Both the position numbers and the translations under genes were made by a program. Under the pieces are notes generated by a model. That model saw only the letters and a list, made by a program, of their open reading frames with translations. It had not been told where the DNA came from and did not search any database. A stretch of 48,647 nucleotides of DNA from Prevotella sp. (lineage in GTDB: Bacteria; Bacteroidota; Bacteroidia; Bacteroidales; Bacteroidaceae). The first letter of the stretch is position 1; each line of letters starts with the position of its first letter. Below are positions 241 to 24,445 of this stretch, in pieces. The stretch covers positions 1 to 48,647 of the forward strand of contig JAFZCU010000237.1 in NCBI GenBank assembly GCA_017556145.1, written 5' to 3'.

Positions 241-521
241 GTACTTTACTCTGGCGCAGAGAAAGTACCAAAGAGACATCCACCCCCTACCAAACCACCC
301 CCTATATGGGGTGTCTTAACTGAAAATCGCGGGAAACCGTCGATTTTCAGGATTCTTGCGTCCCGTTGGTAGCAAGCGCCACCCTTCGGGATGTCGAGCG
401 TTGGTATGGCTCGCTAGCATGTGCCCTAACGGGCGAGCCATGAGTTTCTTTCGGCTGGCGCGACGTGTAATAAAGCCTTGTACCTGAAGGCGAGCCATGA
501 GTTTTTATCGGCTGGCGCAGA
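241..521. repeat. Dispersed hairpin-rich repeat, long copy A
   Basis: This is one of two long copies (the other is 4327-4593). In order it holds a 28-base dyad with GTACTTT/AAAGTAC arms (241-268); a CACCCC/GGGGTG hairpin around a CTATAT loop (296-313); a hairpin at 320-350 with a 10-bp stem CTGAAAATCG/CGATTTTCAG and an inner CGG-GAAA-CCG; an insertion of about 47 bases absent from copy B; and two terminal modules (431-474 and 490-521) containing GCGAGCC...GGCTGGC. It shows no sign of coding: the only frame over 50 residues is in antisense and is broken differently in copy B. Confidence 0.85.
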
Positions 522-564
522 ATTTAACTCAATTCGTTAACCTTATTAGCGTTAAAAGTTAAAC

Positions 565-876
565 TTATTTCCTTTTCCTTTGCTTTTCAAAGAGTTTTGA
601 GTGGCTGCCCAAACGAACAAGGCGTATCTCTTTCCTTTCAGGATCTTTCCAAATGAGGAGGAAGTCATCCTCAATATGACACTCCATACAGTGTTTATAT
701 TGTCCTTTCAGAGGATGAGGAAGATATTCAGATGGAACGGAACCTGTGCTTCCAAGATGTTCAAGTACCTTCTGGAGTTCATCAAGTTTGTGTTCATCAT
801 ACTTCAGAGCCTTCAGGTCCTTCTTGAACTGAGAGGACTGCTTGAGCGTATATTCGAAATGCGATTTTTGTTCCAT
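565..876 (-). CDS. YafQ-family type II toxin
   Basis: This 103-residue protein has the RelE/YafQ signature: a central ...HPLKGQYKHCMECHIEDDFLLIW... block (about 53-76) and the C-terminal motif RLVRLGSHSKLF (about 86-97). YafQ toxins are ribosome-dependent mRNA endonucleases; the conserved His residues in the ECHI, H-x-L-K-G and GSHS segments match the catalytic histidines of the family. The gene follows the antitoxin by 5 bases on the same strand, the usual antitoxin-first order. A terminal module of the hairpin repeat lies about 45 bases past the stop codon. Full length and apparently intact. Confidence 0.9.
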   Translation of the reverse strand: MEQKSHFEYTLKQSSQFKKDLKALKYDEHKLDELQKVLEHLGSTGSVPSEYLPHPLKGQYKHCMECHIEDDFLLIWKDPERKEIRLVRLGSHSKLFEKQRKRK

Positions 877-881
877 CTGTT

Positions 882-1127
882 TCAGAGACTATTGACGTAC
901 TCTTTGAAATTGGTAATGTCGAGTGTTTCAAGTTCTGCACCGCTTTCGCATTCCTCTATGGCAGCACGGGTCTTTGCATTCGGAACATATTCTGTCTCTG
1001 TTTCCTTAGCCTTTGACTTTCGACGAATGGAACGCACAAACTTGATGGTCTGTGTCATCAAATCCTCATCTCCCATGATGTGACTCATTTCATTGAGCAA
1101 GGATTTTTCTAATGTTACTGTTGCCAT
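882..1127 (-). CDS. Antitoxin partner of the YafQ-like toxin
   Basis: An 81-residue protein (MATVTLEKSLLNEM...) lies directly upstream of the toxin with a 5-base gap. The N-terminal residues 1-8 are beta-strand-like, followed by helices, a basic stretch RRKSKAKE (about 35-42) and an acidic C-terminal half that would wrap the toxin. This is the normal layout of a RelB/DinJ-type antitoxin with an N-terminal DNA-binding part, but the sequence is too divergent to assign to a named family by eye. It probably represses its own operon from the promoter at 1225-1283. Confidence 0.8.
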   Translation of the reverse strand: MATVTLEKSLLNEMSHIMGDEDLMTQTIKFVRSIRRKSKAKETETEYVPNAKTRAAIEECESGAELETLDITNFKEYVNSL

Positions 1128-1224
1128 ATTCTTATATGTTTATTACAATTTTTTGTTTATTTCAAAACTCTTGGAGTCGCCTCTAAGGTCATGGATCCAC
1201 TTGTCAGCATCACTCACTCCTGAA

Positions 1225-1283
1225 TCGGTTGCAAAAATAAGGATTTAATTCGATATTTGCAAGAATTATGCCAATAATTTGTT
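1225..1283 (-). promoter_or_regulatory. Promoter of the YafQ operon; 59-base sequence repeated at 3043-3101
   Basis: On the minus strand a -7 box TATTTTTG (complement of 1232-1239) follows a TTG -33 element (complement of 1260-1262) by 20 bases, a good Bacteroidota promoter. The whole 59 bases recur at 3043-3101 with one mismatch, in front of an unrelated toxin-antitoxin pair. The predicted start near 1225 leaves a leader of about 100 bases before the antitoxin ATG; the other copy leaves only about 15. Confidence 0.75.
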
Positions 1284-1503
1284 TGTGAGTTATCTCGATT
1301 TGACGTTTCAGTTAACCCGATGGATGAATCGAGTTAAGACGGGGGTTGTATTAAACTATGTTAATGAGTGGAAAGATTTTCTGAATCCTTGACATTTGGG
1401 GTGACTGCTGCGGTCACGGGCGATATTGTGGATTTGATAACTTTGCCGTGCATTTCCATGTGGGATCTGCATGACTTTTTTTATTCATTAAATTTTTTAC
1501 ATC
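1284..1503. other. Intergenic region between divergent units
   Basis: No gene is supported here. It contains a CTCGATT/AATCGAG inverted repeat (7-bp arms, about 1293-1332) and a short GTGAC/GTCAC dyad near 1401-1417. A -7-like box TAACTTTG at 1438-1445 on the plus strand could drive the small ORF at 1504; I see no good -33 box at the right distance. A frame starting with GTG at 1368 overlaps the next gene out of phase and has no recognisable content. Confidence 0.4.
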
Positions 1504-1677
1504 ATGTCAAAAATCAAAGAAAAACTGACAAGCAAGTGCGCCGGGATTATCCTGCGCGAAGCGAGGGTGAAGGGCCGACTGACCATCATCAGTGACGAAT
1601 GCGGCGTCAACCGCAAGTATTTTAACCGTAAACTGCTGCGTATGCTGAGATTCCACCGAAACGCCTGCAGGCGGTGA
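1504..1677 (+). CDS. Small basic protein, possible helix-turn-helix
   Basis: The frame (MSKIKEKLTSKCAGIILREA...) encodes 57 residues, strongly basic, with a helix-turn-helix-like stretch around LTIISDECGVNRKYFNRK (residues 26-43). It begins 58 bases after a TAACTTTG box. It ends at AGG CGG TGA, and immediately after this stop the +1 frame continues as a Gly/Asp-rich tail (to 1771), so it may be the front part of a longer protein broken by a one-base shift. It heads a cluster with smalltalk and amidase genes, the place normally held by an HU-like DNA-binding protein in Bacteroidota. Function unassigned. Confidence 0.45.
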   Translation: MSKIKEKLTSKCAGIILREARVKGRLTIISDECGVNRKYFNRKLLRMLRFHRNACRR

Positions 1678-1771
1678 GACACCGGGTGGCGGCGAGTCAG
1701 GCGGCGGATCTACCGGCGGTGACGGCGGTGACGGTGGCGACGGCGGCGATGATGGCTTCGATAAAGACTAA
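1649..1771 (+). pseudogene. Gly/Asp-rich C-terminal tail, out of frame with the preceding ORF
   Basis: After a TGA at 1646-1648 this frame reads through ...ETPGGGESGGG... and a run of GGD repeats to a FDKD end and TAA at 1769-1771, with no start codon of its own. Such acidic Gly-rich tails end many Bacteroidota HU-like DNA-binding proteins found just upstream of smalltalk and amidase genes. Either it is the remnant of a deleted HU gene, or it joins the 1504-1677 ORF through a +1 shift at AGG CGG TGA G (two Arg codons before a UGA). The sequence alone cannot decide. Confidence 0.5.
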
Positions 1772-1783
1772 CCCATTAAAAGT

Positions 1784-2056
1784 ATGTTCGAAATGAAAGC
1801 GTTTTTGAAAAAATTATTTCAGAAGTTGATCCAAAGGATCGTTAGGATATTTGTATCCGCTGAGGAGGATGCCCCCGTGAGCGATCAGGATCCTGAGCTC
1901 GCCGAAGGAACCGAGGCTGCCGAAGGAACCGAGGGCGTCGCGGAGGTCAGATCGAAGAAGGCCATCTGGAAATTCGTCATCCAGACGCTCATCAGTATCC
2001 TCACTGCTATTCTGACGGCACTCGGTGCCACCTCGTGCGTAACCCAACTGATGTGA
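1784..2056 (+). CDS. Smalltalk-family protein with an N-terminal extension
   Basis: Residues about 60-86 (the segment IWKFVIQTLISILTAILTAL and following GATSC) match the short hydrophobic smalltalk protein that sits before amidase genes in Bacteroides and relatives; it looks like a single membrane segment ending in a possible lipid-attachment Cys. Usual family members are about 30-40 residues, whereas this frame is 90, adding an amphipathic N-terminus and an acidic AEGTEAAEGTEG repeat. Translation might also start internally. The stop is 3 bases before the amidase ATG, so the two are probably translated together. The family has no proven function. Confidence 0.65.
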   Translation: MFEMKAFLKKLFQKLIQRIVRIFVSAEEDAPVSDQDPELAEGTEAAEGTEGVAEVRSKKAIWKFVIQTLISILTAILTALGATSCVTQLM

Positions 2057-2059
2057 GCC

Positions 2060-2497
2060 ATGCGTACCATCACGCTGATCATTATTCACTGCTCTGCTGT
2101 GAGACCATCGCAGCAGAGCGGTGTGAGCGACATCGACAACTGGCACCGCCGGAAGGGATGGAAAGGGTGCGGCTACCACTTTGTGGTCAGGCGCGACGGC
2201 TCCGTCGAGACGGGGCGCAGGCTCGAGGAGATTGGAGCCCACTGCGTGGGGCACAACCGACACAGCATCGGGGTCTGTTATGAGGGGGGCCTGAATGCCG
2301 AGGGGGTTGCCACCGATACGCGCACGGAGGCGCAGAAGACGGCCATGCTTGGGTTGCTGCAGCGGCTGCACGCCCGCTTCCCCAAGGCCCTCATCGTCGG
2401 CCACGATGTCTTCAACCCCGGCAAGCGTTGTCCTTGCTTCAACGCCGCCCACGAATATTCCGCCCTCCAGCCCCCAGGCCCTGCGGGCGAGCCATGA
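2060..2497 (+). CDS. N-acetylmuramoyl-L-alanine amidase (T7-lysozyme type)
   Basis: This 145-residue amidase_2-fold protein should cleave the amide bond between muramic acid and the stem peptide. Visible are the first zinc His (H10, in LIIIHCSAV), the HF of GYHFVV (39-44), the HSIGVCYEGG strand (68-77), and the second zinc ligands H115 (VGHD) and C124/C126 (PGKRCPCF), with K122 as a likely catalytic residue. No signal peptide, as in phage and island-borne relatives, so export would need a partner such as the adjacent smalltalk protein. The last residues (GEP and the TGA) are encoded by a module of the dispersed hairpin repeat. Confidence 0.88.
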   Translation: MRTITLIIIHCSAVRPSQQSGVSDIDNWHRRKGWKGCGYHFVVRRDGSVETGRRLEEIGAHCVGHNRHSIGVCYEGGLNAEGVATDTRTEAQKTAMLGLLQRLHARFPKALIVGHDVFNPGKRCPCFNAAHEYSALQPPGPAGEP

Positions 2498-2519
2498 GTT
2501 TTTATCGGCTGGCGCAGAC
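2478..2519. repeat. Dispersed hairpin repeat, terminal module only (copy C)
   Basis: The module GCCC-loop-GGGC followed by GCGAGCC...GGCTGGCGCAGA matches the last module of copy A almost exactly. It overlaps the end of the amidase gene, providing its stop codon, and stops 6 bases before the stop codon of the second toxin. The same module lies just downstream of the first toxin at 490-521. Confidence 0.8.
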
Positions 2520-2525
2520 TTATTC

Positions 2526-2822
2526 CTACTCATGCATGTTCTGGGCGTGGCAGGCATCGACGATGGTGACGATGTCACCCTCAAGGGTGTAGGCATAATA
2601 CCACTTGTCGGTGTTTGCCATGTGATATCCCTTGTCTTTCCACCGGGAAAGCGTTGGTTCGCGTCGCAGAAGTGTTTTCTCTATCTGAAAAATAGAGTCG
2701 TAGGCATCATCGACGTTCTGATGCATCAGTTCCTCAGAGTACGTATGCTTGTACTTTTTGGAAACGTTGCGATAGAACGAGACTATCTTTTGGGCACACC
2801 GTTTCTTGATAATATGCTTCAT
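2526..2822 (-). CDS. RelE/ParE-superfamily toxin
   Basis: A 98-residue basic protein (MKHIIKKRCAQKIVSFYRNV...) ending YAYTLEGDIVTIVDACHAQNMHE. The C-terminal strand pattern with a late His (ACHAQNMH) and the helical N-terminal half fit RelE/ParE-superfamily toxins of Bacteroidota. It overlaps the upstream antitoxin by 4 bases (ATGA-type), which supports the assignment. It differs clearly from the YafQ-type toxin at 565. Whether it cleaves mRNA or acts on gyrase cannot be read from the sequence. Confidence 0.75.
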   Translation of the reverse strand: MKHIIKKRCAQKIVSFYRNVSKKYKHTYSEELMHQNVDDAYDSIFQIEKTLLRREPTLSRWKDKGYHMANTDKWYYAYTLEGDIVTIVDACHAQNMHE

Positions 2823-3028
2823 ACCTTCGCGTACTCCTCCCGAACCGCAGCATGAGTGAGAGCACGAGCTTCCTCGATACTCATCGTCTCAGTATCCTCC
2901 AACTCCATCTGCTGAATACGAAGGTCTATCAGCTGCTGTGCCCAAAGGCGGATAGCGGCCGTGGTATTAAGATCCGGACGCATCTCCCGAAGGGTAGCCT
3001 CATTCACTTTTATGCTAACTGTACACAT
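2819..3028 (-). CDS. Antitoxin partner of the second toxin
   Basis: A 69-residue protein beginning MCTVSIKVNEATLREMRP, with a beta-strand-then-two-helix pattern typical of ribbon-helix-helix antitoxins, then a Glu-rich C-terminal helix. It overlaps the toxin start by 4 bases, indicating translational coupling. The promoter copy at 3043-3101 puts the transcript start about 15 bases before the ATG. The DNA-binding part probably autoregulates that promoter. Confidence 0.75.
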   Translation of the reverse strand: MCTVSIKVNEATLREMRPDLNTTAAIRLWAQQLIDLRIQQMELEDTETMSIEEARALTHAAVREEYAKV

Positions 3029-3042
3029 ATCTTACACTTTTT

Positions 3043-3101
3043 TCGGTTGCAAAAATAAGGATTTAATTCGATAATTGCAAGAATTATGCCAATAATTTGT
3101 T
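3043..3101 (-). promoter_or_regulatory. Promoter of the second toxin-antitoxin operon; repeats 1225-1283
   Basis: The minus-strand -7 box TATTTTTG (complement of 3050-3057) and TTG -33 (complement of 3078-3080) are separated by 20 bases, as in the first copy. Only one base of 59 differs between the copies although the downstream antitoxin genes are unrelated. It lies 40 bases beyond the manA stop codon. Confidence 0.75.
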
Positions 3102-3141
3102 ATTTGACTTTGGCTGTATCTTTTGTTGCTGCGTCATAAAT

Positions 3142-4305
3142 TCAGGGTTGGGAGGCGTGGAAGAAGCGGGTGATGAGGGTGGAGAGGGGGTTGTCGAAAT
3201 TGTCGATGAAGGCATCGAGGAGACGGGTAGAAACACCAGTAGGACGGGGGGATATACCAGTAGGACGGGGCGCAACACCAGAATGAGGACGAGTCGCAAC
3301 ACCAGAATGAGGACGGGCGGTTACACCGGTATGAGGAGGGATGCCGTCATTAGCGAGGGGGGCCTGAGGAAGGACGTCGTAGTCGGCGATGGCGGCGGGG
3401 ATGAGGGTGGAGGAACCTTGCCTCAACGTAATTTCATCACCTGTAGAGCGGATGCGGAGGGTGCAGTCGCCCTCGATGCACATGGAGATGACGAAGCTGT
3501 CGTATTTGCGGAGGTCGCGGTGGAAGGGACGCGAGATCTCGGTCACGCGGACATCGAAATAGGGGGTGTCGATAATCTGGACGGCGCGATTGGAGGTGTC
3601 GGCATACTGTGTGCGGTAGTTGGGTTCGACGTGGAAGTTGAGGGCCTGGGCTGCCAGGGCGGTATGGAGCTCGCGGGGCTTGCCGTCCATGCCGGGGCGG
3701 TTGTAGTCGAAGATGCGGTAGGTGATGTCGGAGGACTGCTGGACTTCTGCGAGCAGGATGCCGCCACAGATGGCGTGGACGCGGCCAGCGGGGAGGTAGA
3801 ACACGTCGCCTGCCTTAACCTGGTGGTCGGCGAGGACCTCGGTGATGCTGCCGTCCTCTACGCGCTTCTGGTACTCGTAGGGGGTGATGTTCTGCTTGAA
3901 GCCGGCATAGAGGTGGGCGCCTGGGTCAGCCTTGATGATGTACCACATCTCGGACTTGCCCATCTTGCCGTGGAGGCGCTGCGCCAGGGCATCGTTGGGG
4001 TGGACCTGTATGCTGAGGTCTTTTTCTGCATCAATGAATTTGACTAATAAAGGCAGTTGGCCGTGGAATCTTTCGTTGACGGCCTTGCCGAGGATTTCCT
4101 CGGGGTGGTCGTTGATCACGGAAATGAGGTCGCGGCCTTTCCAACTGCCGTTGGAGATGATGCTGGGGCTGGAGGGGACGGCACTGACTTCCCAGCTTTC
4201 GCCGATTGGATCGGAGGAGGGCTCCAGACCTTTGTAAGGCCGGAGCTGGTGGCCGCCCCAGATCACGGGGTGGAGGTTTGGTTCAAACAATAATGGGTAA
4301 AACAT
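3142..4305 (-). CDS. manA: Type I mannose-6-phosphate isomerase
   Basis: Interconverts mannose-6-phosphate and fructose-6-phosphate in the cytosol, feeding mannose into glycolysis or supplying GDP-mannose for glycans. The cupin zinc site is visible: Q100 and H102 (SIQVHPND), E119 (KSEMWYI) and H177 (AGRVHAI); R197 in the TYRIFDYNR segment is the usual catalytic Arg. At 387 residues it is longer than most Bacteroidota homologues of about 320. The excess is a tandem repeat loop at about residues 324-361 and a tail after the last cupin strand (RLLDAFID). Gene start (MFYPLLFEPN) is standard. Its promoter is probably 4709-4739, giving a leader of almost 400 bases that carries repeat copy B. Confidence 0.93.
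   Translation of the reverse strand: MFYPLLFEPNLHPVIWGGHQLRPYKGLEPSSDPIGESWEVSAVPSSPSIISNGSWKGRDLISVINDHPEEILGKAVNERFHGQLPLLVKFIDAEKDLSIQVHPNDALAQRLHGKMGKSEMWYIIKADPGAHLYAGFKQNITPYEYQKRVEDGSITEVLADHQVKAGDVFYLPAGRVHAICGGILLAEVQQSSDITYRIFDYNRPGMDGKPRELHTALAAQALNFHVEPNYRTQYADTSNRAVQIIDTPYFDVRVTEISRPFHRDLRKYDSFVISMCIEGDCTLRIRSTGDEITLRQGSSTLIPAAIADYDVLPQAPLANDGIPPHTGVTARPHSGVATRPHSGVAPRPTGISPRPTGVSTRLLDAFIDNFDNPLSTLITRFFHASQP
3223..3336 (-). repeat. In-frame tandem repeat in manA
   Basis: About five units of 21-24 bases encode HTGVTARP, HSGVATRP, HSGVAPRP, TGISPRP and TGVSTR. Two adjacent 24-base units are nearly identical at DNA level. The repeat keeps frame and sits between the last two strands of the C-terminal cupin domain, away from the zinc site. 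Confidence 0.85.
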
Positions 4306-4326
4306 GCTGTTTTAAAGCTTTTATAT

Positions 4327-4593
4327 GTACTTTACTCTGGCGCAGAGAAAGTACCAAAGAGACATCCACCTATCCCAAACCCTTCCCTATATGGAAGGGC
4401 TTAACTGAAAATCGCGGAAAACCGACGATTTTCAGGGGTTTGGTATGGCTCGCAAGCCTGTGCCCTAACGGGCGAGCCATGAGTTTCTTTCGGCTGGCGC
4501 GACGTGTAATAAATGCCCTGAAGATGCGCAAAGAAGCCTGGACACTAAAAGGCGAGCCATGAGTTTCTTTCGGCTGGCGCGACGTGTAATAAA
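4327..4593. repeat. Dispersed hairpin-rich repeat, long copy B
   Basis: Same order of parts as copy A: identical 28-base GTACTTT dyad (4327-4354); a CCCTTCC/GGAAGGG hairpin on the same CTATAT loop (about 4379-4399); the CTGAAAATCG/CGATTTTCAG hairpin with inner CGG-AAAA-CCG (4405-4435); then two terminal modules (4470-4513 and 4551-4593). Against copy A the second hairpin has three stem pairs changed on both sides with pairing kept. It lies 22 bases upstream of manA and inside its probable transcript. Confidence 0.85.
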
Positions 4594-4871
4594 TTATATC
4601 CCAAGGTGATGGTGTAATCGATTGATTATCAGCACGTTGGTTATTATACAGAGCAGTATATAAGGGCGAAAAGGGGGGTGATGAAAATCGATTTTCCCTA
4701 TTCGAAGGCAAAGTTACGAAAAAAAAACGAAACGACAAAATAAAAACAAGTTTTTATTCTGTCATGGAGCACAAAGCGATAAAAACATGAAGGTCGTCAG
4801 GCGAAGGGGGGCTAGACATAAATGCAGCGGGCTTACACATTATATTATATATAGAGGGGCGAAAAAGCTCA
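4594..4871. other. Intergenic stretch with A/T-rich palindromes
   Basis: No gene found. It contains the perfect palindrome TAAAAACAAGTTTTTA at 4741-4756, with a third half-copy ATAAAAAC at 4779-4786, and a weak TAATC/GATTA dyad near 4612. The palindrome lies just upstream of the manA promoter's -33 box, so an operator role is possible. Confidence 0.4.
4709..4739 (-). promoter_or_regulatory. Promoter reading toward manA
   Basis: Minus-strand -7 box TAACTTTG (complement of 4709-4716) follows a TTTG -33 box (complement of 4736-4739) by 19 bases, a near-perfect Bacteroidota promoter. The transcript would run through repeat copy B before the manA start at 4305. Confidence 0.7.
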
Positions 4872-5045
4872 AATAAATTTGGCTTTTCGTTCGTTTTTGC
4901 GTAACATTAGCAAAGCTGAAGTTACTTAGCACTCAGAAAAGTCCTAATAAATTTGGCTTTTCGTTCGTTTTTGCGTAACATTGACTATGTCGAAATTACT
5001 AAGCACTCAGAAAAGTCCTAATAAATTTGGTTTTTCGTTCGTTTT
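4872..5045 (+). repeat. 74-base tandem repeat upstream of ruvC (two and a third units)
   Basis: Units begin at 4872, 4946 and 5020 with AATAAATTTGG...TTCGTTCGTTTTT; the third is partial and runs into the ruvC promoter. Each unit contains a TTTG -33 box followed 20 bases later by a -7 position: TAACATTA in unit 1, TAACATTG in unit 2 and the consensus TAATTTTG in the last. The array therefore looks like successive copies of one promoter. Confidence 0.85.
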
Positions 5046-5057
5046 TAAGTAATTTTG
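5026..5057 (+). promoter_or_regulatory. ruvC promoter
   Basis: TTTG at 5026-5029, 20 bases, then TAATTTTG at 5050-5057. The ruvC ATG is at 5066, only 8 bases after the -7 box, so the transcript would be leaderless or nearly so. Confidence 0.7.
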
Positions 5058-5065
5058 TAGCGCAA

Positions 5066-5707
5066 ATGGAGAAAGTGATTTTGGGGATTGACCCGGGGAC
5101 GAACCTGATGGGCTATGGGCTGCTGAAGGTGAGCGATGGCAAGGCGCAGATGATGACGATGGGCGTTATCGACCTGCGCAAGTTTGCCGACGCCTACCTG
5201 AAACTCGGCCATATCTTCGAGCGCGTGACGGGGATCATCGACGGCTACCTGCCCGACGAGATGGCCATCGAGGCCCCTTTCTTCGGCAAGAACGTGCAGT
5301 CGATGCTGAAACTCGGTCGCGCCCAGGGTACCGCCATCGCAGCCGCCATCCACCACGGGGTGCCCATCCACGAATATGCGCCCATGAAGATCAAGATGGC
5401 CCTGACCGGCAATGGCGGGGCATCGAAGGAACAGGTGGCGGGGATGCTGCAGCGTCTGCTGAAAATTCCTGACGAGGAGATGTCGAAGTTTATGGATGCG
5501 ACGGATGCCCTCGCTGCCGCCTACTGCCACTACCTGCAGATGGGACGGCCAGAGAGTGAGGTGAAGTATCGGGGGTGGAAGGACTTCGTGAACAAGAACA
5601 AAGAGAAGGTCGCAAGAAGGAGAGAAGGAGAACTCGGCTCTGCCGCTTGCTACCGAAGGGACGCAAGAAGGAGAGAAGGAGAGAAGGAGAAGGATGAAGA
5701 CGATTGA
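5066..5707 (+). CDS. ruvC: Holliday junction resolvase RuvC
   Basis: RuvC nicks four-way junctions symmetrically and works with RuvAB in recombinational repair. The RNase-H-fold catalytic residues are visible: D9 in ILGIDPGT, E69 in [10 protein letters not shown], and the acidic pair in the [12 protein letters not shown] segment (about 147-158). The start at 5066 ([12 protein letters not shown]) matches the family; longer frames upstream begin inside the promoter repeat. At 213 residues it exceeds the usual 160-190; the extra C-terminus (about 180-213) is a highly charged tail from a duplicated AGAAGGAGAGA-type sequence (5611-5631 and 5662-5682, period 51). It overlaps the next gene by 14 bases, indicating coupled translation. 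Confidence 0.92.
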
Positions 5708-21123: not shown

Positions 21124-22782
21124 ATGGAATCATTCAGTAGCTTCAACGCCTATATCCAACGCGCGATCATCGACAATTGGGATCAGGACGCCCTCACCGA
21201 CTATCAGGGAGCCACCCTCCAGTTTCATGATGTCGCACGGAAGATTGAGAAACTGCATATACTCTTCGAGAACAGTCATGTGAAACAAGGTGACAAGATT
21301 GCCATCTGCGGCCGTAACTCCGCCCACTGGGCAGTGGCCTTCCTTGCCACGCTCACCTATGGTGCCGTGGCAGTGCCCATTCTCCATGAGTTCAATGGCG
21401 AGCAGATCCACAACATTGTCAACCACTCCGAATCGAAACTCCTCTTCATCGGTGACTATGCCGTGAAGACCATCAATCCTGATGAGATGCCCGACTTGGA
21501 AGGCATCATCAACATCCCCGACTTCTCGCTGATGGTCAGTCGCTCAGAGGAGCTCACCTACGCGCGCGAACATTTAAATCTCATGTTCGGCAACAAGTAT
21601 CCGATGGCTTTCCGGCGAGAGCACGTCAGCTATCATCAGGATGAGGCTGAGGAGCTGGCCCTCATCAACTACACGAGTGGTACGACCGGTTACTCGAAGG
21701 GCGTGATGCTCCCCTATCGCGCCATCTGGGGCAATATCGAGTTTATCATCAGTCGTCTGGGTAAGATTGTCAAGCCCGGGGATAACCTGCTGAGCATCCT
21801 GCCCATGGCCCACATGTACGGCATGGCCGTAGAGTTCCTCTTCGGTTTCTGCCACGGCTGTCATCTGTTCTTCCTGACGCGTCTGCCAAGTCCTGCCATC
21901 ATTGCGCAGGCCTTCCTCAACGTGCAGCCTACACTCGTGGTCACCGTGCCCCTGATCATCGAGAAAATCATCCGCAAGAAAGTGTTCCCCAAGATACAGA
22001 ACAACCGCATGCGCCTGTTGTTGGCGATGCCCGTGGTGAGCAAGAAGGTGAAGGACCGCATCTGCAGTGAGGTGTACAAGGCCTTTGGCGGAAAGCTCTA
22101 CGAGGTGATTGTGGGCGGTGCTGCCCTCTCGAAAGAGGTCGAGGAGTTCCTGCTGAGCATCGGCTTCCCCGTCACTGTAGGCTACGGCACCACCGAGTGT
22201 GCGCCCCTCATCTCCTACTGCGACTACAAGGAGTTCCTCGCCGGTTGTTGCGGTAAGCCTGTGGACCGTATGGAGGTGAAGATTCTCTCCAACGACCCGC
22301 AGCACATCCCCGGGGAGATTGTGACCAGAGGCACCAACGTCATGCTCGGCTACTACAAGAACGACGAGGCCACCCGCGAGGCCCTTGACGACGAGGGCTA
22401 CTATCATACCGGCGACCTGGGTACCCTTTCCGCCTCGAACCACCTGTTCATCCGCGGTCGCATCAAGAACATGCTGCTCGGTGCCAACGGACAGAACGTC
22501 TATCCTGAGGAAATCGAGGACAAACTCAACTCGATGACGATGGTGGCAGAGAGTGTGGTCATCCAGCGAGGCGACAAGCTCGTGGCCCTCGTACACCCCG
22601 ACAAGGACGAGATGATAAACTTCAGCCGGGAAGAGCTGGAGCAGATCATGGAGCAGAACCGCCAGAACCTGAACGAACAGCTGCCTGTGTACAGCCGTAT
22701 CTCACAGATCATCCTCCACGAAGAGGAATTTGCCAAGACACCTAAGAAGAGTATCAAACGCTACTTATATCAGAACTACTAA
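21124..22782 (+). CDS. AMP-binding acyl-CoA/acyl-ACP synthetase, first paralogue
   Basis: A 552-residue member of the ANL superfamily, related to long-chain acyl-CoA synthetases: adenylates a carboxylate, then transfers it to a thiol. A3 P-loop YTSGTTGYSKGVM (about 181-193), A5 GYGTTECAPLIS (about 355-366), A7 YHTGDLG (about 425-431), A8 RGRIKNMLLGANGQNVYPEEIE (about 442-463), and the A10 Lys near KTPKKSIKRYLY at the C-terminus are all present, so the enzyme should be active. No signal peptide. It is followed one base later by a close paralogue with the same architecture. Confidence 0.9.
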   Translation: MESFSSFNAYIQRAIIDNWDQDALTDYQGATLQFHDVARKIEKLHILFENSHVKQGDKIAICGRNSAHWAVAFLATLTYGAVAVPILHEFNGEQIHNIVNHSESKLLFIGDYAVKTINPDEMPDLEGIINIPDFSLMVSRSEELTYAREHLNLMFGNKYPMAFRREHVSYHQDEAEELALINYTSGTTGYSKGVMLPYRAIWGNIEFIISRLGKIVKPGDNLLSILPMAHMYGMAVEFLFGFCHGCHLFFLTRLPSPAIIAQAFLNVQPTLVVTVPLIIEKIIRKKVFPKIQNNRMRLLLAMPVVSKKVKDRICSEVYKAFGGKLYEVIVGGAALSKEVEEFLLSIGFPVTVGYGTTECAPLISYCDYKEFLAGCCGKPVDRMEVKILSNDPQHIPGEIVTRGTNVMLGYYKNDEATREALDDEGYYHTGDLGTLSASNHLFIRGRIKNMLLGANGQNVYPEEIEDKLNSMTMVAESVVIQRGDKLVALVHPDKDEMINFSREELEQIMEQNRQNLNEQLPVYSRISQIILHEEEFAKTPKKSIKRYLYQNY

Positions 22783-22783
22783 T

Positions 22784-24445
22784 ATGGAACAGATTCCAAG
22801 TTTTAACGCACTCATACAGAAGAGCATCATCGACAACTGGGACCGTGATGCGCTCACTGACTACAAGGGTCAGACCTTGCAATACCATGATGTGGCCAGA
22901 AAGATAGAGAAGATCCATATTCTTTTCGAGAACAGCGGTATCCAGAAAGGCGACAAGATAGCCCTCTGTGGCCGCAACTCCTCACAATGGGCCGTTGCCT
23001 TTCTGGCAACACTCACCTATGGTGCCATCGCCGTACCCATCCTGCATGAGTTCAATGCCGAGCAGATCCATAATATCGTGAACCACTCCGGAGCACGACT
23101 TCTCTTTGTGGGCGATCATGTGGCCACCATCATCGACCCCCTGGCCATGCCCACCCTCGAAGGTATCATCAACAACCCCGACTATTCGCTGATGATCAGT
23201 CGCACCGACAAGCTGACCTATGCCCGCGAGCACCTCAACGAGCTCTATGGCAAGAAATTCCCGAAGTACTTCCGCAAACAACATGTGGCCTACTATATCG
23301 AGCAGAGTCCCGATGAGCTGGCCGTCATCAACTACACCAGCGGCACCACGGGCTTTTCAAAAGGTGTGATGATACCTTACCGAGCCCTTTGGTCGAATTA
23401 CGATTTTGCCCGCTATGAGCTGGGTAAGATCATCAAAGCCGGCGACAAGGTGATCTCCATGCTCCCCATGGCCCACATGTACGGCATGGCCTTTGAGTTC
23501 CTCTTCGAGTTCGTCCACGGCTGCCATGTCTACTATCTGAACCGTGTGCCCTCGCCAGCCATCATCGCACAGGCACTGGCAGAGATCAAGCCCATCGTCG
23601 TCATCGCCGTACCCCTCATCATCGAGAAGATCATCCGTAAGAAAGTATTCCCCAAGATACAGAACAACCGCATGCGCCTGTTGCTGCAGATGCCCGTTAT
23701 CTCGAAGAAGGTGCGGGAGATGATCTGTCAGGAAGTGCTCAAGGCCTTTGGCGGAAAGATGTACGAGGTAATCATCGGGGGTGCTGCCCTCAACCAGGAG
23801 GTGGAACGATTCCTCAAGCGCATCGAGTTCCCCTACACTGTAGGCTATGGTGCTACCGAGTGTGCCCCCATCATCTGCTATAGCGACTGGCACACCTTCG
23901 CCCAGGGCTCCTGCGGTCGTGCTGCCTTGCACCAGGAGGTGGAAATCGACTCCCCCGATCCCCGTCGCATTCCCGGCGAGATCCTTACCAAGGGTCCCAA
24001 CGTCATGCTCGGCTACTATAAGAACCCCGAGGCCACTGCCCAGACCATCGATCGCGAAGGCTGGTATCACACTGGCGACCTGGGCACGATAGACCTGAAC
24101 GGCAATGTCTTCATCAACGGCCGCTCGAAGAACATGCTCCTGGGGCCCAACGGCCAGAATATCTATCCCGAAGAGATCGAGGACAAGCTCAATTCGATGA
24201 CCATGGTTGTGGAGAGTATCGTGGTGCAGCGCGACAACAAGCTCGTCGCCCTTGTCTACCCCGACTACGACGAGGCCAAGAACCTGAACCTCTCTGCCGA
24301 CGACATCAAGCATATCATGGAGCAGAACCGCAATGGTCTCAACGAGATGCTCCCCGCCTATGAGAAGATCTCGGAGATAGAAATCCACGAGCAGGAGTTT
24401 GAGAAGACCCCCAAGCGCTCCATCAAACGCTATCTATACACCTGA
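22784..24445 (+). CDS. AMP-binding acyl-CoA/acyl-ACP synthetase, second paralogue
   Basis: A 553-residue tandem paralogue; the start MEQIPSFNALIQKSII aligns with MESFSSFNAYIQRAII of the first copy. A3 YTSGTTGFSKGVM, A5 GYGATECAPIIC, A7 YHTGDLG, A8 NGRSKNMLLGPNGQNIYPEEIE and the C-terminal KTPKRSIKRYLYT are intact. Long identical blocks (for example VFPKIQNNRMRLLL) show a fairly recent duplication, while the acyl-pocket region around 210-260 differs in several positions, which may reflect different acyl specificity. No promoter of its own; co-transcribed with the first copy. Confidence 0.9.
   Translation: MEQIPSFNALIQKSIIDNWDRDALTDYKGQTLQYHDVARKIEKIHILFENSGIQKGDKIALCGRNSSQWAVAFLATLTYGAIAVPILHEFNAEQIHNIVNHSGARLLFVGDHVATIIDPLAMPTLEGIINNPDYSLMISRTDKLTYAREHLNELYGKKFPKYFRKQHVAYYIEQSPDELAVINYTSGTTGFSKGVMIPYRALWSNYDFARYELGKIIKAGDKVISMLPMAHMYGMAFEFLFEFVHGCHVYYLNRVPSPAIIAQALAEIKPIVVIAVPLIIEKIIRKKVFPKIQNNRMRLLLQMPVISKKVREMICQEVLKAFGGKMYEVIIGGAALNQEVERFLKRIEFPYTVGYGATECAPIICYSDWHTFAQGSCGRAALHQEVEIDSPDPRRIPGEILTKGPNVMLGYYKNPEATAQTIDREGWYHTGDLGTIDLNGNVFINGRSKNMLLGPNGQNIYPEEIEDKLNSMTMVVESIVVQRDNKLVALVYPDYDEAKNLNLSADDIKHIMEQNRNGLNEMLPAYEKISEIEIHEQEFEKTPKRSIKRYLYT

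Follow-up and report, generated by a model that had tools for sequence, protein, structure and literature searches.

A dispersed mosaic DNA repeat of Prevotella with covarying hairpins and a mirrored third strand suggestive of a purine-motif triplex

Whether DNA triple helices form in living cells, and whether they are relevant there, is a long-standing question. The closest described system is the class II motif (BoxC/PIT/TM-ECO; PMC4666352), built from a pyrimidine arm, a loop, a purine arm, a short spacer and a mirror third strand; in-cell footprinting of the E. coli motif indicated a triplex that is minor or transient, if formed at all (PMC4666352). REP/BIME sequences with their RAYTs form a second related system. 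In a stretch of 48,647 nucleotides from Prevotella sp. (hereafter the window) we analyzed a repeat which shares with class II motifs the layout above, an intergenic multi-copy distribution and possible head-to-head pairing on opposite strands, and with REP/BIME sequences the short, dispersed, palindromic and intergenic character with inverted pairs at times. Departures from the class II motif are a first hairpin (H1) that is A-rich where the CCCTCNCCC type is G-rich, a recurrent GGCGC loop, an CATCCACC linker and a bulge in the two window copies. In addition, H1 is followed by a G-rich unit that resembles a triplex and lies on the opposite strand, and then by a pair of modular hairpins. In comparison with REP/BIME sequences it is larger, carries triplex motifs and is not consistently linked to a Y1 transposase. 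Assignment to TM-ECO, with the E. coli BoxC consensus CCCTCNCCC-GGGNGAGGG-GGGNGAGGG, was rejected, as H1 is A-rich and the second hairpin (H2) is similar in kind only. A search of titles and abstracts, with most subscription papers and preprints outside its range, returned no description of this Prevotella element or of the loop clasp treated below. Prevotella-only and palindromic Bacteroidetes RNA candidates have been named (PMC8040213), and the element may overlap with some of these. Overall, the repeat is in our view probably a mosaic DNA element, non-autonomous and BIME-like, which acts as folded single-stranded DNA with a triplex at H1 and is recognised by an enzyme.

The sequence-only reading had placed two copies, A and B, with their hairpins in the same order, and both were confirmed. 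The order is an H1 dyad, a CTATAT hairpin (H2), H3 CTGAAAATCG, H4 with a GCGAGCC arm and a right end GGCTGGCGC; positions below are on the plus strand unless noted. H1 of copy A (241..268) is a hairpin with a GGCGC loop; its 5' arm has a single bulged A, and its 3' purine arm AGAGAAA (258-264) is followed by AAAGAGAC (270..277), which mirrors this arm and the C preceding it. Thereafter come H2, CACCCC-CTATAT-GGGGTG (296..313), H3 (320..350), H4 ATGGCTCG..CGAGCCAT (406..441) and the right end GAGTTTCTTTCGGCTGGCGC (442..461), with an additional right-end module of family D5 behind it (484..518). Copy B has H1 with the same bulged A (4327..4354), AAAGAGAC (4356..4363), H2, CCCTTCC-CTATAT-GGAAGGG (4380..4399), H3 (4405..4435), H4 (4445..4480), the right end (4481..4500) and an additional right-end module of families D5 and D7 (4551..4580). 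Between H3 and H4, copy A alone of the two contains an unrelated palindromic repeat of about 48 nt, CTTGCGTCCC..GGTAGCAAGCG (353..400, ends approximate), which also occurs inside two copies on contig C101 of the same genome and at 5641-5669. An isolated right-end module without the left half overlaps the end of an amidase ORF (2480..2518). As single-stranded DNA, copy A (241-470, z -4.3) and copy B (4327-4510, z -5.7) each folded better than 200 of 200 dinucleotide shuffles.

The purine segment behind H1 (270-277; 4356-4363) had been overlooked in the first reading. Across the fetched copies it mirrored the 3' arm of H1 exactly at 116 of 118 distinct anchored places. Units entered these counts if they had a GGCGC loop, an A[T/C]CCACC anchor and a stem of 4 pairs or more. 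From the 126 anchored units, 6 were left out, two as chance matches (L114, L138) and four because the stem was broken or truncated (one in L153, L162, L170, L172); the remaining 120 include two places seen twice. Units with other loops were excluded, for example the CGTGC unit of L037, in which the third segment departs from the mirror. Among 10 distinct arm/third-strand pairs 8 were exact (shuffles: mean 0.9, maximum 6 in 5000), although the shuffles overstate independence because there are just 10 such pairs and the copies are related. Such a like-with-like mirror is the signature that a class II purine-motif intrastrand triplex would leave (BoxC/PIT/TM; PMC4666352). Class II was defined as a pyrimidine arm, a loop of 1-6 nt, a purine arm, a second loop of 1-6 nt and a third strand that follows A(T)-A-T and G-G-C on a stem of at least 6 nt, and in relatives a mirror of at least 8 nt was present in 51 of 56 distinct units. 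The third strand of copies A and B is likewise an exact mirror, and their duplex carries the bulged A, which is also found in two further C101 copies. Due to this bulge in the first stem the triplex of the window copies would be imperfect, and for the same reason a strict triplex finder returned 0 in the window, which counts against our main reading. Differences that run through both arms and the third strand together were observed at orthologous sites (L113/L115, L118/L121 and L049/L164); evolution seems to have kept all three helix strands in step. The fold of copy B prompted the idea that the third strand pairs with downstream DNA, which was rejected since there was no excess over shuffles, and values for a copy's own downstream DNA (5.26) and that of other copies (5.32; 113 units) were alike. 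Upstream matches of at least 7 to the third strand numbered 34 vs 20.7, which we ascribe to H1-like sequence upstream.

Template switching gives rise to inverted or direct repeats, not to mirror repeats. This bears on the possibility that the repeats are neutral palindromes, perfected by hairpin-templated correction and gene conversion without any selected structure. In its favour, the two sides of the stems change together without intermediates and segments seem to be exchanged between copies, but the third strand is a mirror and tracks the arm both at the 116 places and in an independent collection of viral contigs. There, in a crossed control run on viral contigs only, arm type against third-strand type gave 14, 2, 0 and 10 stretches (Fisher p 1.2e-5; stretch L320 counted in two cells). 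We therefore regard neutral palindromes as very improbable. A triplex-like arrangement can be drawn for H2 as well, on the opposite strand, with putative and imperfect third strands on the minus strand at 283..291 in copy A and at 4369..4376 (GGGATAGG) in copy B. The mean match was 0.903 vs 0.806 (sd 0.014) in 39 distinct units, kept from 50 after 10 with arms under 6 were dropped and one was merged. The mirror is imperfect and the excess modest, and H2 may be a weaker, G-rich version of the triplex.

Double changes in H2, described for copies A and B in the sequence-only reading, were correct and proved general. In 23 chosen copies 8 of the 14 H1/H2 pairs varied on both sides, giving 57 doubly changed cells; shuffles gave 17.8 and slid controls 3 to 7. 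This supports the constraint on pairing that the same reading had proposed; it had also named a lack of covariation as refuting, and covariation was present. For H3/H4 of relatives another 85 doubly changed cells were counted over 27 references (26 ranges from 44 listed H3 units and one fragment of copy A). Beside these 142 cells there were 0 one-sided changes of the G-C to G-U type, and none of the non-pairing cells (7/322 and 11/495) was a wobble. Further pair types fell below shuffles in both counts (9 vs 13.9; 16 vs 18.5), which counts against our main reading. Since the stems change on both sides without wobble, the pattern speaks for DNA over RNA. A structured RNA or 5' leader regulator, one of the options raised by the sequence-only reading, would account for covarying stems with conserved linkers, for GAAA-like loops in some H3 and for the location of copies A and B, which lie upstream of start codons by 40 and 22 bases. 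The distances hold for these two copies but not as a rule: among 86 distinct copies, with crude ORF calling, the gene to the left pointed leftward in 41 and rightward in 32 and was absent in 13, and with gene orientation this inconsistent a leader role was rejected. Membership of an RNA family was rejected as well, since Rfam at gathering level found two tRNAs only in the window and nothing at E<=1 in five element loci, and one-sided changes were 0. Purine-motif triplexes are reported not to form in RNA (PMC4666352), and the mirror third strand fits a DNA triplex, so that we give the RNA explanation hardly any credence.

A model of the element's first half (R1) matched in 110 of the 398 genomes of the genus, own genome counted, and 100 R1 regions, chosen among the matches listed, were fetched. 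Copy-rich genomes include G094, G257, G394 and G292, and the H1 unit is also present in Xylanibacter ruminicola D31d (record L239). The own genome had 7 CM matches, on contigs C178, C101 and C27; further copies outside the window, the absence of which the sequence-only reading had named as refuting, were thus present both there and in the genus. Plasmid and phage collections gave no element match. Near-identical copies occur at unrelated sites and the order H1-H2-H3-H4 recurs, while a right-end signature lay at most 320 nt away in just 55 of 113 units, which counts against our main reading. At sites orthologous between G094 and G257 the intergenic regions without the element were shorter or different, and in L112/L124 H2-H4 of other types were found inside flanks of 96-99% identity. 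Measured against MITE criteria, presence/absence sites were found, whereas clean or exact ends and target-site duplications, the latter a check named beforehand, were not seen at the orthologous sites compared. Presence and absence at orthologous intergenic sites partly establish mobility, and the REP-like or non-autonomous mobile element suggested in the first reading is supported as the likely kind, for mobility in part only. A structural repeat without mobility is an unlikely alternative, in which triplexes stall replication, raise local recombination and persist as sites of instability, as has been suggested for the TM motif of E. coli. TM motifs are tied to variable loci (PMC4666352), and intergenic regions around our copies differ strongly between relatives, with differing modules at the same site; instability alone, however, leaves the recurring hairpin order and the near-identical copies at unrelated sites unexplained. 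For the enzyme-recognised mosaic element we instead propose that H1 would form its hairpin when the strand is unpaired during replication, repair or transfer, and that the purine segment behind it would then enter the major groove as a class II third strand. H2 could form a triplex likewise on the other strand, and H3 and H4 would be plain hairpins. A single-strand-processing enzyme, as we infer, would recognise the folded shape and copy the element into new intergenic sites by active transposition, and recombination among copies, possibly conversion, would swap internal modules. If an enzyme does recognise the fold, a widespread and unexplained class of repeats gains a mechanism.

A candidate for such an enzyme would be a RAYT (Y1 transposase), with the element as its REP sequence, like the atypical REPs of Bacteroidetes TnpA-REP subclass 2.6 (PMC6006769). 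PF01797 was somewhat commoner in strong carriers (33/51 vs 163/347, p 0.024) and in one case (L337) the distance between a Y1 gene and an element is about 440 bases. Of the 30 Y1 loci with the highest scores, however, just 1 had a significant element match, PF01797 was absent in 18 of 51 strong carriers, including G094 (12 matches) and G257 (11 matches), and it is a different palindrome that flanks the own-genome Y1 gene. After examination of PF01797 over the 398 genus genomes, an R1 scan of these 30 loci and a reading of the own-genome Y1 locus, a cognate Y1 partner was rejected, and we hold this to be the least probable of the explanations considered.

In RNA triple-helix pseudoknots, a strand folds back along the stem and the bases beyond it pair with the hairpin loop. 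A contig scan found the A-rich triplex motif across many phyla, and these relatives share the pseudoknot topology: longer hairpin loops paired with bases after the third strand, here called a clasp, in 44 of 56 distinct cases (shuffles 5.2), the 56 being those kept from 92 distinct cross-phylum units with a loop of at least 6 after stem extension. No clasp was found in short hairpin loops of 3-6 nt (24 units) or in the window copies. Judged from sequence, the cross-phylum relative is a predicted clasped triplex pseudoknot, in contrast to its RNA counterparts made of DNA and with a purine-motif, like-with-like third strand. Three-strand covariation in nature, together with a clasp where a folded-back third strand would end, amounts to evolutionary evidence for the fold, and the element copies provide a catalogue of natural variants for testing it. 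Tentatively, and with more doubt than confidence, clasped triplexes may be a selected, phylum-spanning class in which the loop locks the folded-back third strand by Watson-Crick pairing and which serves as recognition signal of an undiscovered machine processing single-stranded DNA, the Prevotella element being a composite form without clasp. As a generic control, mirror and direct motifs in 1.11 Mb of fetched loci numbered 14 vs 12, a count that carries no information either way, and 10 of the 12 direct matches had AAAGAAAG arms, with a 7-nt core that is its own mirror. Clustering of ORFs from 119 loci by the cross-phylum motifs, with clusters judged by inspection alone, yielded no transposase-like family. 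Several recurrent ORF clusters were situated at distance 0 and represent ORFs over the repeat itself.

The two repeat copies, A (241-521) and B (4327-4593), are present as the sequence-only reading had described them, with a common order and common sequence, and in single-stranded DNA folding none of 200 dinucleotide shuffles did as well as either copy (z -4.3 for A and -5.7 for B). Copy A is split at about 353-400 by some 48 nt of a different palindromic repeat, one that recurs on the minus strand at 5641-5669. This repeat is also nested in H2, the second of the element's four hairpins (H1 to H4), in two copies on contig C101 of the same genome, between CCTTC and CCTATATGG, and its family (CTTGCGTCCC..GGTAGCAAGCG) was also seen in L021, L022 and other own-genome contigs.

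The claim that stem changes are compensated on both sides was borne out. In a 23-sequence alignment, H1 and H2 had 57 doubly changed cells (17.8 in shuffles, 3 to 7 in slid controls) and not a single one-sided change, with 7/322 cells non-pairing, and for H3 and H4 in 27 sequences the corresponding counts were 85 and 0 (shuffles 27.1, slid controls ≤11), with 11/495 non-pairing. Further pair types were below the shuffles in both counts (H1/H2, 9 vs. 13.9; H3/H4, 16 vs. 18.5). An RNA helix usually changes by way of a G-U intermediate, and the lack of one-sided changes fits DNA; correction of palindromes by template switching would also account for it, an explanation to which we give low weight. 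Of the proposed structured RNA or mobile hairpin the repeat itself is real, while the RNA reading lost support, as no one-sided changes were seen. We conclude that the repeat is a DNA-level element that carries triplex motifs beyond its compensatory stems, the mechanism of which we infer.

H1 is followed by a purine segment (the third strand) that repeats the 3' arm of H1 in mirror image, e.g. AGAGAAA..AAAGAGA, AAAGAAAA..AAAAGAAA, GAAGAAAA..AAAAGAAG and AAGAAAA..AAAAGAA, and its count of A's also tracks the arm. A perfect mirror of at least 8 nt was found in 51 of 56 distinct units (one of the 51 truncated), and in a stem-filtered set of 120 units, representing 118 distinct places, the mirror was exact over 8 nt in 116/118. 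Eight of ten distinct arm/third strand pairs were exact, compared to a mean of 0.9 and a maximum of 6 in 5000 shuffles. At three orthologous loci (L113/L115, L118/L121 and L049/L164) all three strands differ jointly, for which conversion by another copy is a possible explanation. The third strand matched its own downstream DNA no better than that of other copies. Copies A and B and two C101 copies have a bulged A in the H1 5' arm (GTACTTTACTCT or GTCCTTTACTCT), and therefore a strict triplex finder returned zero motifs over the window; the triplex of these copies would be imperfect, with a third strand that is still an exact mirror. In L153 (3160; G299:C10) the purine arm has a T (CTAT..ATAG) and the third strand has C, not T, opposite, possibly a rule for inverted pairs.

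H2 follows the same mirror logic on the minus strand, G-rich and with A or T opposite A. Its third strand matched at 0.903 vs. 0.806 (sd 0.014, max 0.853) in 39 distinct units, and at 0.832 vs. 0.740 under a strict rule. Together with the H1 motif, two facing triplex motifs are thus possible in one element, an arrangement that recalls the TM motifs of E. coli, of which MG1655 has five inverted pairs (PMC4666352). To the right of elements in the same Prevotella intergenic regions, L100 and L103 have G-rich BoxC-like motifs (CCCCTCC..GGAGGGG..GGGGTGG).

A single A-rich triplex pattern gave at least 119 stretches in genome_contigs, of which 80 were listed by title. The listed titles included Paraburkholderia, Xanthomonas, Stenotrophomonas, Aeromonas, Pasteurella, Selenomonadaceae, Clostridia, Sphingobacteriaceae, Chitinophaga, Lentisphaerae, Elusimicrobia, Desulfobacterales and archaeal MAGs; some matches may have arisen by chance, for instance where the loop is A/T-only, the crossed control covering viral contigs only. 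In that control, two arm types by two third strands, the mirror combinations gave 14 and 10 stretches and the crossed ones 2 and 0 (Fisher p 1.2e-5). In Paraburkholderia (L211, L217, L249, L259) two opposite-strand triplex motifs lie about 350-500 bases apart.

Longer loops of this cross-phylum set pair through their 3' end with the bases that directly follow the third strand, e.g. GCTTGCCC with GGGC, a pairing (the clasp) that was not part of the search pattern. Restricting the set to true loops of ≥6 left 56 distinct units, 28 of which had an in-register clasp of ≥4 contiguous pairs (shuffled 2.7, max 11; parallel control 1/56). With one unpaired base allowed on either side the count rose to 44 (shuffled 5.2, max 13), and over unique loops it was 38/48 (shuffled 4.5, max 16). 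Loops of 3-6 showed no clasp (0.79 vs. 0.84 pairs, 24 units), and the window's GGCGC loop has none. Burkholderia relatives contribute a large share of the units, whose independence is therefore incomplete. Such a pairing would be predicted if the third strand ended at the loop, and a pseudoknot with the third strand in another groove may be an alternative.

The intrastrand triplex motif class (BoxC/PIT/TM) was already known; in the portions of PMC4666352 consulted, Holder et al. study G/C-rich TM and describe RNA as incapable of a purine-motif triplex. The main text of that article is without Prevotella, Bacteroid-, pseudoknot or covar-, and the part of PMC3733652 consulted mentions Bacteroidetes once and neither triplex nor mirror. 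PMC8040213, consulted in part, covers RNA candidates in Prevotella and Bacteroidetes, known here by name, with which the element possibly overlaps. To judge by the literature searched, three things are new: the composite Prevotella element, the use of three-strand covariation as evidence, and the clasp.

Copies also occur beyond the window. A covariance model of H1, third strand and H2 (R1), built from 23 chosen sequences, matched 7 places in the own genome and 110/398 genus genomes at E≤0.001 (own included), with a best E below 1e-9 in 51 of these (strong carriers). BLAST with copy B matched 16/199 genomes, own included and of a single genus throughout, and a DNA search gave 20 matching pieces in the own genome, those >50 nt on contigs C178 and C101 only. 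Inverted pairs of R1 matches a few hundred bases apart are recurrent (e.g. G018:C201, G018:C152, G394:C17). Contigs L093, L097, L106, L120 and L137 start or stop near a copy, as expected of a repeat that breaks assemblies.

Element-bearing intergenic regions of genome G394 correspond to short or different regions in relatives: 370 nt vs. 40 for one (G094 and G257) and, between matching flanks, 272 nt vs. 7 for another (G094). Neither exact ends nor target duplications were found at these sites. L112 and L124 share flanks (96-99% identical) and an identical H1 and have H2, H3 and H4 of different types, which indicates an exchange of modules, with conversion between copies its probable cause. 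The right-end signature TCGGCTnnCGC occurred within 320 nt in only 55/113 units, so variation is greater in the right half than in the left half.

On its occurrence across the genus genomes and the 30 best-scoring Y1 loci, the REP-type transposase Y1 (PF01797) was rejected as partner of the element. It is present in 196/398 genus genomes and in 33/51 strong carriers (p 0.024), the 18 negative carriers including G094 and G257 (99% complete; 12 and 11 matches), and only 1 of the best 30 Y1 loci (L337) had a significant element match. A divergent TnpA-REP might still be the partner, given the atypical flanking structures of Bacteroidetes subclass 2.6 described in the part of PMC6006769 consulted. 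The own-genome Y1 gene (L366, about 1190-2400; G000:C81) is flanked by a different palindrome, CTCACAGCACTCCTGTCCCC.

Candidate toxin-antitoxin-like small gene pairs lie around copies in the window (565-1127 and 2526-3028) and in L022 (2094-2750 and 4578-6460), the C101 pairs being judged by eye. Pfam assigns 565-876 to the YafQ toxin family and gave no match for 882-1127 and 2526-2822. A DUF6486 and amidase gene pair (Pfam; 1784-2497) lies near copies in the window, and small genes similar to this pair, by eye, are apparently near copies in L056 and L021 (6780-8900). Elsewhere in the window, two adjacent paralogous genes (21124-24445) are 73-78% identical over long stretches, and a tandem repeat with a 74-base unit (its 42-base start three times) lies at 4863-5052, directly upstream of ruvC.
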